Shown here: piece after piece, positions 32,670 to 36,474 of the stretch
Layout: each line of letters opens with the position of its first letter
Position numbering within the stretch: the first letter of the stretch is position 1
DNA from: Ulota crispa
Lineage: Eukaryota; Streptophyta; Bryopsida; Orthotrichales; Orthotrichaceae
DNA length: 64,000 nt
Assembly: GCA_963920765.1 (NCBI GenBank)
Contig: OY987245.1
Coordinates: 15,950,727 to 16,014,726 of the forward strand
Direction of reading: 5' to 3'
Notes under the pieces: model-generated
Seen by the model: only the letters and a program-made list of their open reading frames with translations
Databases searched by the model: none
Told to the model about the DNA's origin: nothing
Translations under genes and position numbers: made by a program

Positions 32670-33004
32670 TTAATAATTTGTTTGTTGTAGTAAATATATA
32701 TTTCAAGACCTTTTAGAGACTTTGTAGGGGCTCTTGCCACTAGTAGAAAATTTAGCACAAAATCAATAGAATTTCAACCAAAAATTGTTGATTTTTTTTG
32801 TGGATTTGGTCAAGTTGATTTGGGTACTTTTCAACAAGAGTATGTTGATTTTCTGTTGATTTTTTGTTAATTATTTGCTAATTTTTGTTACTTTTTTGTT
32901 GATTTTCTGTTAATTTTCACGTGTTTTATGTTGTTCAATTTTTTTTTTTTAAATTTTTAAACTTTAGTTCGTAGATTTTTTTTTTTTTTTTAATAAAAAA
33001 TTAA

Positions 33005-33145
33005 TTTTTTTAAGGGCCGGGCAACTGCCCGGTGGTGCAGGCAACTGCCCGGTGGTGCAGGCAACTACCCATGGCGTTGGACAGCTACCCGCATCACCGG
33101 GCAGGGCTACCGGCATTGGAGTTTGAATCTCCCACCTCCGGGCTC
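33005..33145 (+). repeat. GC-rich SINE-like patch with a 22-bp direct repeat
   Basis: GGCAACTGCCCGGTGGTGCA occurs twice in tandem, followed by a diverged third copy. GGAGTTTGAATCTCCCACC at about 33,117 resembles a degraded B box. It lies within the CACTA element and may be a fragment of a Pol III-derived repeat. Confidence 0.3.
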
Positions 33146-33703
33146 ATACTTCACAACTCTACCACATTATTCACAACCACTAGCACACATGCACTCACAC
33201 ATGTGCACAATAGTATCATGATTCTATTTGTACATTAAATGTTCATGTTTTAAGTAAACCAGTAGACTTTGGAGGCTATTTCGGCCCATTAAAGGACTTT
33301 TTTTCATTAACTTAGAACTAAGAAAAGTTGGTAAATGAATTTTACTTTTACCTCCAACAAATTTTTTGGATTTCAATCTTTTTATAAAAAATTATGAGCT
33401 AAAATCAGAAAAGGTGTTTAGAAATTTTTAAAAAAATGTTTATTTCCATCCTTTTGATTTTATTTATAAATTTTTATTGGAATTCACAAATCTTAGAAAG
33501 ATTGTTGCAAGCAAAGGTTAGATTCATTAATAATTATTATATAGTGCTAGTTTTTTTGTAAAAAGAACCTTATTCTATTAAAATAGCCTCCATAGTTTGA
33601 TAGCTTTAAATAACATAAAATCATGAAAAGTTACGGAATTAAAACTTTGCAATTATAAAATCAAAATTCTATAGACTTTTGAATAGTTTTGGATAGTTTT
33701 TAA

Positions 33704-34115
33704 GGGCATTAATATGTGAACCACACCCTTTGAACTACTATATCACATCCCCCAGGATAAATTTTAGATTTCTGCCATCAAAAATTTGAGTTTGAGAATT
33801 TTGAATTCAAATTTGAACTTAAAGACCATGATATTGTCTAGGACCATAAAAAAAGTTGCAATTCAACAACACCCAATGAAAAAGCTTATCTTTTTTTACA
33901 AACAAAAGTAAATTAACAATTTTCTCCCTAACTAAACTTTTTCATTGGGTGTTGTTGAATTGCAACTTTTTTTATGGTTTTAGACAATACCATGGTCGCT
34001 AAGTCCAAATTTGAATTCAAAATTTTCAAATTTAGCTTTTTGATGGTAGATATCTAAAATTTATCCCGGGATGTGGTATAGTAATTGGAAGGGTGTGGTA
34101 CGCATATCAATTCCC
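33704..34115. mobile_element. Foldback MITE, 412 bp, same family as 9,392-10,667
   Basis: The left end GGGCATTAATATGTGAACCA is matched inversely by the right end finishing CATATCAATTCCC. Arms of about 180 bp pair through 'GCAATTCAACAACACCC' and 'GGGTGTTGTTGAATTGC', with a short centre at about 33,895-33,930. It is the best-preserved copy in the window and nested in the CACTA element. Confidence 0.78.
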
Positions 34116-34789
34116 ATCTTTTAAAGCTTATAAAAATATTTTATAAGATTGTTTTTTTTTAATTCATTTGGTTAGTAATAGAAGGAAAAATACTAAAAGT
34201 ATCCTTTAAGTCTTTCAAAATATCAAGTTTATGCTGAAAATATTTGAAACATAATAAATATTCCTTATTTTTTGTAGGAATATCAATTATACTCCTATGA
34301 TTTTAGAAAAATAATAAAAAAGCTCTTCTATTTTGAAATGTTAAAGATATCCTTGTGTTATTTGAAATGTAAAAATCACCTTTGGTTTCTTGTAAGAATT
34401 TGCATTAAACTATACACTTGGGTATCATATAACACAAAGATATAAATAATTTAAAATAGTTGAGGAGCATTTTTAATATTTTCCCAATATATTAGAAGCA
34501 TTGTTGATATTTATACAAAAAGGAAAGATATTTTTGGTACTTTTAATCCTTGAGGTATATATATGATTTTTTCAAAGAATTGAGGAGCATCTTTTATATT
34601 TGTTTGTAAAGAAATTTTGGTATTTAAAACAACAAAATGTTATACTTTTTATATAAAATTTTGTTGAATTAGTGAAGTTGTGTCCAAAAATGTCTAGATT
34701 AATAGTTAATTTTTGCTAAACCTAATTCTTCATGGTTGGAGCAACTACTTTGGAATTGGCAACTTTGTTCATACCTTCAGTCTACTGGA

Positions 34790-35434
34790 TCACTAGATCT
34801 GGCATAGAAGCTGGCGATATTTACGTCGTAAATTTTCTAAAACTCCTCAACCCAGACTGGTTTCCCGATTCTATCAGGGGGTGCCCTCTCCCCGTGGCAG
34901 ACTTTGGGATTTCCATGCTACTTGGACCGAGCCCAGTGTAGATGCCAAATGCCATTATGCTGACGTGATATGGATAACACTCCTTGCGTTTATGGTAAAA
35001 GAAGTTCCTGCTCATATGTTTCGAGCATCTCGTGATCTAGGTAATCCTTTTGTAGATTCAACCCCTTTTGATGAATGGAATCTTCGGATTCAAAGCTATC
35101 GGGAAATTTTGGTGGACGAGAAAGGTAATGAATTTAGCAAGCTATTCATCCGCTAGAAAGGTATATGTCCTGTCTGCAATCAAGGCTTAGGTTATTTGAC
35201 TAGCTCTAATTTAGAGATTCAAGACCTCCGGCCTTTTTATAAGAACTCAAAAGTGCCTGGTGATGGTAATTTGTTGCACAAATCTCTTGTGCACTCTTAG
35301 TGTCTTGTTACAGAACATGCTTGAGGATAGACTACATAGGTTGTGGGCATATTCCGCAAAGAGCCCAGTGCTTTGAGAGGAGCTTGCTGGGTTTTGTGGG
35401 GGGCTTTGCTGGGAACGGCAAAATCTATCCCAAT
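34790..35434 (+). pseudogene. Mitochondrial group II intron maturase fragment (cox1 intron)
   Basis: One reading frame can be followed from about 34,790 to 35,290. It shows YLRRKFSKTPQPRL, then LWDFHATWTEPSVDAKC, then ADVIWITLLAFMVKE, VDSTPFDEWNLRIQSYREI and KGICPVCNQGLGYL. The last is a Cys-x2-Cys of the HNH-type C-terminus of group II intron proteins, followed by [10 protein letters not shown] and ...DRLHRLWAY. The reverse-transcriptase part is missing. In-frame TAGs at about 34,792, 35,154-35,156 and about 35,298, plus a short deletion near 35,320, break it. The remaining 35,330-35,434 resembles the intron's 3' structural end and finishes in AT before the exon. It is a nuclear copy of mitochondrial DNA and is not expected to function. 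Confidence 0.72.
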
Positions 35435-35766
35435 CCTGAGGTCTATATTCTAATCTCGCTAGGATTCAATATCATTAGTCATATTGTTTCTACCTTTTCA
35501 AGAAAACCCGTATTTGGTTATCTAGGCATGGTTTATGCCTTGATCAGTATTGGAGTTCTTGGATTTATTGTGTGGGTGCACCACATGTTTATCATAGGCT
35601 TAGATGTTGATACACGTGCTTACTTCACTGCGGCTACCATGATTATTGCCGTGCCTACTAGAATCAAAATTTTTAGTTGGATTGCTACCATGTGGGGAGG
35701 TTCAATACAATATAAAACACCCATGTTATTTGCTGTAGGATTTATCTTTCTATTTACTGTAGGGGG
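35435..35766 (+). pseudogene. cox1: Mitochondrial cox1 exon (nuclear copy)
   Basis: The frame reads [11 protein letters not shown], then [20 protein letters not shown], then [37 protein letters not shown] and FLFTVGG: unmistakable cytochrome c oxidase subunit 1, including the HHMF copper/haem-region motif and the K-channel-side TAATM. The piece covers about 110 codons of roughly 525. It starts immediately after the codon before PEVYI and stops at GG before an intron-like GTGTG. Several residues are atypical (LGFN for PGFG, WVHH for WAHH, PTRIK for PTGIK), all explicable by C-to-T/G-to-A changes as in methylated silent nuclear DNA. It still contains introns, so it came from mitochondrial DNA and not from mRNA. 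Confidence 0.93.
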
Positions 35767-35866
35767 GTGTGACGTGCTAACCGGAATGGATGACGTTTAC
35801 TTCGCCATAACCCCAGAAATGGCAATAGACGGACGTATTCTCTCTCCAGTTGGTCATGTTTTTACT
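35767..35866 (+). pseudogene. 5' end of the next mitochondrial cox1 group II intron
   Basis: The sequence immediately after the exon is GTGTGACGTGCTAACC, matching the GUGYG start of group II introns. Organellar-like composition continues to about 35,866, after which AT-rich CACTA subterminal repeats begin. The insert therefore ends about 100 nt into this intron. Confidence 0.55.
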
Positions 35867-35999
35867 TGACTTCAAAGGTTGCTAATTTTAAATCTAACCA
35901 AATTGTGAAAAGTAAAGAAAATAAAACCAGTCAATGTACACTCAAACTTCTAAAAGATTTTGTTTTTCTTGAAAACTTCTTTTATTTTTTAAAACTTCA

Positions 36000-36460
36000 A
36001 AACACTTTAATGAGGTCCAAAGAGATTCTAGAAAGATTTCAAAAACAAACCTAAACTATTGTAATAGTTTTTTTATTAAAAATATTATAAAGTATTTTGA
36101 TGAATTACAAAAAGATTCCTAAAAGACTCTAATTCAGTCTAAGAGATTCTATTTCTATAAATATTTTGAAGTATTTTCACAAGTTTCATAAAGATTTTAA
36201 AAAGATTCTCAAAGATTCCAAAAAGGTTCTTGAAAATTCTCAAAGATTCTCAAAAAATTTTAAAATTTCCAAAGAGATTCTCAAAAGATTCCCAAGGATT
36301 CCCAAAGATTCTTAAAGATTCTTGAAGCTTCTCAAAGCTTCCAAGAAGATTCCAAGAAGATTCTTAAAGATTTTCAAAAATTTTCAAAAAAATTCAAAAT
36401 TCCTAGAACATTTCCAAAGATTCTCAAATATTCCAAACTATTCTCAAAGATTTTCAAGAA
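36000..36460. repeat. Subterminal AAAGATTCTC repeats of the CACTA element
   Basis: Dozens of variants of AAAGATTCTCAAAGATTCC, mostly 10-12 bp apart, run up to the right terminus. Such short subterminal repeats are where CACTA transposases bind. Confidence 0.6.
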
Positions 36461-36474
36461 TTCTACTAGTGTGC

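Follow-up and report, generated by a model that had tools for sequence, protein, structure and literature searches.

Mitochondrial cox1 and maturase DNA nested in a CACTA-type transposable element of Ulota crispa

The element and its mitochondrial insert

The stretch of Ulota crispa DNA analysed here, referred to as the window, is 64,000 nucleotides long and belongs to contig C4, a 25.7-Mb contig in a 275-Mb genome of 157 contigs. Read directly from the letters, positions 32738-36471 form a single non-autonomous CACTA-type element that is flanked by TGC on both sides, starts with CACTAGTAGAAAATTTAGCAC and carries the inverted ends CACTAGTAGAA and TTCTACTAGTG. To assign elements to the CACTA superfamily we looked for inverted ends of 10-28 bp with a CACTA start and a TAGTG finish; those of the window copy are 11 bp long, and the 3-bp target-site duplication (TGC/TGC) and the subterminal repeats of the superfamily, as arrays at left and right, are also present. 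The superfamily's feature list also names subterminal repeats in both direct and inverted orientation; none of the seven subterminal motifs counted in the window copy occurs in opposite orientation or at the other end. No transposase frame was seen inside the element in the list of open reading frames of at least 120 aa. The parts of the element and of the DNA inside it are as follows.

32735..32737, unstranded: TGC, 5' target-site duplication (direct read)
32738-32748: left end CACTAGTAGAA (direct read)
32738..34712, + strand: element, left part, beginning CACTAGTAGAAAATTTAGCAC (20 of 20 fetched copies align over 1,965-2,004 bp at 88-90% identity)
32843..32918, + strand: left subterminal short repeats of the TGTTAATTTTC / GTTGATTT type (tandem repeat finder, motif counts)
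33704..34115, unstranded: internal imperfect palindrome, common to the family (opposite-strand self match of about 82%)
34713..34715, unstranded: left junction, TTG common to element and mitochondrial DNA (element match to 34715 in some copies, mitochondrial match from 34713)
34713..35852, + strand: NUMT, 1,140 bp of mitochondrial DNA (97.0% identity to contig C156)
34713..35324, + strand: C-terminal part of a group II intron maturase, with in-frame stops (translation compared with the open C156 frame; RVT_1 and GIIM on the C156 protein)
35359..35434, + strand: 3' end of the group II intron, domains V/VI (RF00029, 45.7 bits, cut-off 40; positions 2260-2335 of locus L009)
35435..35766, + strand: probable extent of a 332-bp cox1 exon (borders placed by means of the Rfam hit and of the intron-like sequence from 35767 on; COX1 identified by Pfam in the C156 counterpart)
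35767..35852, + strand: probable start of the following cox1 intron, 86 bp, beginning GTGTGACG (C156 match extends to 35852)
35851..35852, unstranded: right junction, TG common to mitochondrial DNA and element (mitochondrial match to 35852, element match from 35851)
35853..36471, + strand: element, right part (homology to the best other copies stops at 36464)
36201..36457, + strand: right subterminal repeat array (AAAGATTCTC), shorter than that of other copies (tandem repeat finder; comparison with fetched copies)
36461-36471: right end TTCTACTAGTG (direct read)
36472..36474, unstranded: TGC, 3' target-site duplication (direct read)

The insert was recognised as a NUMT from its 97.0% identity to a putative mitochondrial contig of the same genome, C156, combined with nuclear flanks on the 25.7-Mb contig; the alignment contains 34 mismatches and no gaps over 1,140 bp. 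The size of C156 (104,638 bp) and its cox1 and maturase content indicate that it represents the mitochondrial genome. At the corresponding locus C156 has a COX1 exon and an open maturase frame, of which 703 codons were given to Pfam (RVT_1, GIIM). In the window the second intron probably starts at 35767, judging from the point where COX1 similarity stops and from the GTGTG found there. A frame of 189 aa at 35300-35869 is the cox1 exon read through into the second junction, and we saw no reason for calling it a gene, nor any sign of a role for the insert.

The preliminary description of this DNA had placed a CACTA-type element around about 1.1 kb of mitochondrial cox1 and maturase sequence. Its coordinates, 32738..36471, proved exact, the ends, TGC duplication and subterminal repeats are all present, and the mitochondrial content is borne out by the C156 match, the Rfam group II intron and the Pfam hits on the C156 counterpart.

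Sequence related to the palindrome of about 410 bp at 33704-34115 is also found at 10309-10624 and 50128-50394 in the window, and the palindrome could represent an older foldback or MITE-like insertion carried by the ancestral CACTA element. The left flank of the element, 32237-32673, is a dispersed repeat (5,461 candidates, best 40 scored) that stops some 64 bp short of the element. The last 64 bp or so returned only the window's own match among the best 40 of these 5,461 candidates, and a paralogous empty target site was not found by this search. Elsewhere in the window, at 47564-48553 (-) and 60732-61721 (+), are two oppositely oriented frames of 329 aa that closely resemble each other and are separated by about 12 kb; by eye, they would encode a putative short-chain dehydrogenase-like protein.

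Sister copies, the empty site and the junctions

A 27-bp pattern for the family's left end (up to 3 mismatches) was found at 755 places in the genome and a 20-bp pattern for its usual right end (up to 2 mismatches) at 912, the reversed-pattern control giving 0 in each case; part of these matches may come from related families with similar ends. When the left 1,001 bp of the element were used as query, at least 31 other places matched over nearly the full query at 81-88% identity (best 40 of 1,122 candidates). We fetched 20 family copies, in most of which the left terminus is CACTAGTAGAAAA and the right terminus TTTTCTACTAGTG. Motifs resolved both ends in 14 of them, while one or both ends were not found in six (L054, L057, L060, L061, L066 and L071). 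Identical 3-bp target duplications flank 10 of the 14 resolved copies (TAT, TTG, TAA, TAG, TAA, AGC, TTA, GTT, TCT and ACA), and the duplications are non-identical in the other four (L055, L067, L068 and L069). The ends and the matching duplications of the fetched copies support a non-autonomous family of CACTA type. Tnp2-type transposase (PF02992) is abundant in the genome, with at least 150 matches (best 150 of 596 candidates), and so far none is linked to the element's ends, for each of which the first 100 places were covered. In two pairs of copies, L066/L069 and L067/L070 (contigs C6 and C5), the members are very similar, face opposite ways and are separated by about 31 kb and 9 kb, an arrangement suggestive of inverted segmental duplications.

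The right end of the window copy is abnormal. All 15 right ends found in fetched copies are GACGGAGTTTTCTACTAGTG or a near variant, whereas the window copy has no canonical GACGGAGTT stretch and retains only some of the right repeat array, which runs directly into TTCTACTAGTG. Homology on the right side, at 93-95% identity to 39 scored other copies, ends at query position 595 (window 36464) in 38 of them and at 591 in one, and the fetched copies continue past 36464 with further repeat array. The exact 17-bp end CAAGAATTCTACTAGTG has one occurrence in the genome, with four other places at one mismatch. At 36464-36471 the right end is thus a short derivative, with the array joined directly onto the family's terminal 11 bp.

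The site that holds the insert could be read in other copies at 48 distinct places (61 overlapping loci), out of several hundred genomic copies; copy L061, which is without its right part, was left out of this count. The insert was present at none of the 48. All are empty, with 24-29 bp between the matching flanks (approximately 34702-34705 and 35851-35854). A copy bearing the insert should, however, outrank empty ones in a search with the insert. Searches with the insert and with the mitochondrial segment, including the fetched neighbourhoods, revealed no other place where element and insert occur together. The pattern by which we would recognise mobilised Pack-CACTA cargo, namely two or more copies carrying identical cargo at identical junctions, was not observed (0 of 48).

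Comparison with the empty site also defines the junctions of the insert. Microhomology between element and mitochondrial DNA amounts to 3 bp on the left (TTG) and 2 bp on the right (TG), and about 8-15 bp of the target were lost, the figure varying with the alignment chosen for the low-complexity left side. Such overlaps together with target loss are as expected for end-joining, the kind of junction that we looked for in a NUMT.

Decay, relative age and independent transfer

The preliminary description had proposed aligning the insert to the species' own mitochondrial genome in order to date it. Among the 34 differences from C156 (97.0% identity) there are 16 C>T, 16 G>A, one G>C and one A>G. 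By context, the C>T rate in the insert is 13/82 for CG, 13/90 for CHG and 6/340 for CHH, and five other NUMTs have rates of the same order of magnitude (11-23%, 11-17% and 1-4%, respectively). With 32 of 34 changes being C>T or G>A, mostly in CG and CHG, this is the decay already known to affect organelle sequences in plant nuclei, which has been attributed to cytosine methylation for organelle inserts (PMC7037861, in the excerpted text) and for plastid inserts (PMC6376042, likewise in excerpt). The decay of the window insert is probably due to methylation as well.

In order to keep this bias out of the age comparison, we limited it to changes other than C>T and G>A, and scored the private changes of the element against 26, 42 and 44 other sequences in three segments, so that these counts depend on the sample. 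The insert has 2 such changes in 1140 positions and the element 25 in 2218 (Fisher p 0.002); without the more divergent left segment, the middle and right parts of the element have 10 in 1297 (p 0.043). Counting changes from A or T only, the element has 23/1648 and the insert 1/628 (p 0.009), or 9/972 for the middle and right parts against the same 1/628 (p 0.099). When all kinds of change are pooled there is no difference, the insert being 3.0% diverged and the element 3.0-3.2% from its consensus in the middle and right parts and 7.5% in the left. Judged from these counts, which agree in direction and amount to modest evidence, the element lineage probably predates the insert. Because private changes give an upper bound on the time that the element has spent at this site, the test is silent on its last jump.

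A search with 34600-35900 returned the window, C156 (97%) and five other nuclear places (best 40 of 963 candidates), three of them with the whole 1,140 bp at 94-95% identity and two with 380 and 232 bp; the lower-ranked matches were copies of the element, matched in the flanks only. Each of these five places (L011-L015) belongs to a mitochondrial stretch that is longer than the window insert or has other borders. The stretch spans 2,041 bp in L011, with both borders seen, at least 3,232 bp in L012 and at least 1,880 bp in L014, each with one border seen, and at least 4.1 kb in L013, which is mitochondrial throughout the locus with no border seen, while L015 holds a rearranged mitochondrial set. 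Within the fetched DNA, the only element matches beside L011-L015 were 14-22 bp long with E of about 0.9-3.2, which is noise.

With 4,140 bp of C156 as query, four more short nuclear fragments overlapping the segment were found. Two of them, C1:37259168 and C2:23932722, cross the right border of the window insert, and the other two, C6:768782 and C1:190172, end 4 bp and 3 bp, respectively, from one or other insert border. The regions around the latter pair (L077, C6:768600-769150, and L078, C1:189900-190450, 551 bp each) match the insert at 90% and 82% and contain only chance-level matches to the element; as no element lies beside either of these old fragments, we took the shared border as coincidence. 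The window's two borders are found in none of the nine other nuclear fragments, and element sequence lies beside the segment in none of the seven that were fetched, as far as the fetched DNA reaches.

L011-L015 have 4, 4, 6, 0 and 0 derived changes in common with the window insert, compared with 6-34 insert differences in the stretches compared, and we rejected derivation of the insert from another NUMT on this ground. The changes in common are read as recurrent hits at methylated sites. The simplest reading is that of separate mitochondrial transfers, with the window insert independent of the others.

The number of NUMTs to be expected inside the family by chance can be roughly extrapolated. 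The 4,140-bp query gave at least 41 nuclear matches (best 40 of 78 candidates), five of which are at least 1 kb long, including the window; some matches are pieces of one place, and 38 was used as a rough count of NUMTs. We scaled this to the full length of the mitochondrial contig and to the family's share of the genome, about 0.7-1.0% when the end count is multiplied by 2.6 or 3.1 kb; the estimate is crude, and long NUMTs are counted repeatedly. Approximately 0.9-1.3 NUMTs of at least 1 kb are then expected by chance within the family, and with an expectation of about one, a NUMT inside a family member is no surprise.

Origin of the arrangement and comparison with known systems

The locus is very probably an ordinary NUMT that lies within a CACTA-type element already resident there. 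A non-autonomous element inserted at the site, as its TGC duplication records, and its right repeat array lost part of its sequence, either before or after the insert arrived. A later double-strand break in the element would have been repaired with the 1,140-bp mitochondrial fragment that is now seen there, presumably through end-joining, and the insert would then have decayed by the observed C-to-T change, probably via methylation. The transposon has not detectably multiplied the insert. The idea of the preliminary description that the mitochondrial DNA had been captured as spreading cargo is not supported, with 48 of 48 readable sites empty and no other place combining element and insert encountered. 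Absence of the insert from other copies had been named there as an outcome that would refute the idea, and it was obtained as far as the copies allow (48/48 empty); the alternative offered there, a mitochondrial insertion landing in the element, is consistent with the junctions, with the kinds of mutation and with the relative age.

It is improbable that the element took up the mitochondrial fragment elsewhere and that cut-and-paste movement then brought the two here together. The insert does lie between both ends and within a perfect TGC duplication, so that the unit could formally move, and cut-and-paste leaves a single copy, with which one earlier move is compatible; however, no second copy bearing the insert was seen, the window's exact right end is unique in the genome, the element lineage looks older than the insert (even if private changes could partly predate the last jump) and plain NUMT insertion accounts for everything with one event fewer. 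We give almost no weight to the suggestion that two unrelated transposon ends share TGC by chance. The right terminus is indeed unlike the family's usual one beyond its last 11 bases, but these 11 bases match the family, and the left, middle and right parts to 36464 are collinear with other copies, which largely rules out a chimera of two elements and upholds the earlier assignment of both ends to one element. Equally hard to credit is a misassembly in which mitochondrial reads were fused to a nuclear repeat: repeats can be misassembled, but the insert differs from C156 at 34 positions, nearly all of the methylation-decay type, and thus is not a misplaced mitochondrial read. Had the element moved with its insert, a nuclear DNA transposon would have carried mitochondrial DNA at least once, and DNA transposons would offer a way for such DNA to spread in nuclei, but nothing in the evidence suggests this. 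As a NUMT nested in a resident element, the locus provides a clean example of an organelle fragment that settled in a repeat and decayed by C-to-T change, with the empty site readable in dozens of sister copies.

Pack-CACTA and Pack-TYPE elements contain foreign sequence between CACTA ends. The window element is like them in having foreign DNA in this position and unlike Pack-CACTA in that its insert is in no other copy read, so there is no evidence of cargo having moved. CACTA (En/Spm-type) elements are described, in the excerpted text of PMC7139988, as having CACTA...TAGTG ends, a target duplication (3 bp in the example given) and subterminal repeats. The non-autonomous ones and the window element are alike in these three features as excerpted there (PMC7139988); the window element differs in its shortened right array and in that no transposase frame was seen among open reading frames of at least 120 aa.

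Organelle inserts in plants are joined at breaks by end-joining with 1-7 bp of microhomology, and in some species they are often co-localised with transposable elements (PMC7037861, in excerpt). Plant NUMTs and the window insert are alike in their microhomology junctions and C>T/G>A decay, as far as the excerpts extend (PMC7037861, PMC6376042). There is no essential difference between them, the host here being a DNA transposon with both its ends. Among titles and the opening lines of abstracts we recognised no report of mitochondrial DNA inside a CACTA element, which is not proof of absence. The excerpt of PMC4632043 describes the maize 9L locus, a large NUMT later invaded by retrotransposons, and as described there it has in common with the window the nesting of mitochondrial and transposon DNA. 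The order differs: in maize 9L the transposons landed in the NUMT (PMC4632043, in excerpt), whereas in the window the NUMT most likely landed in the transposon.
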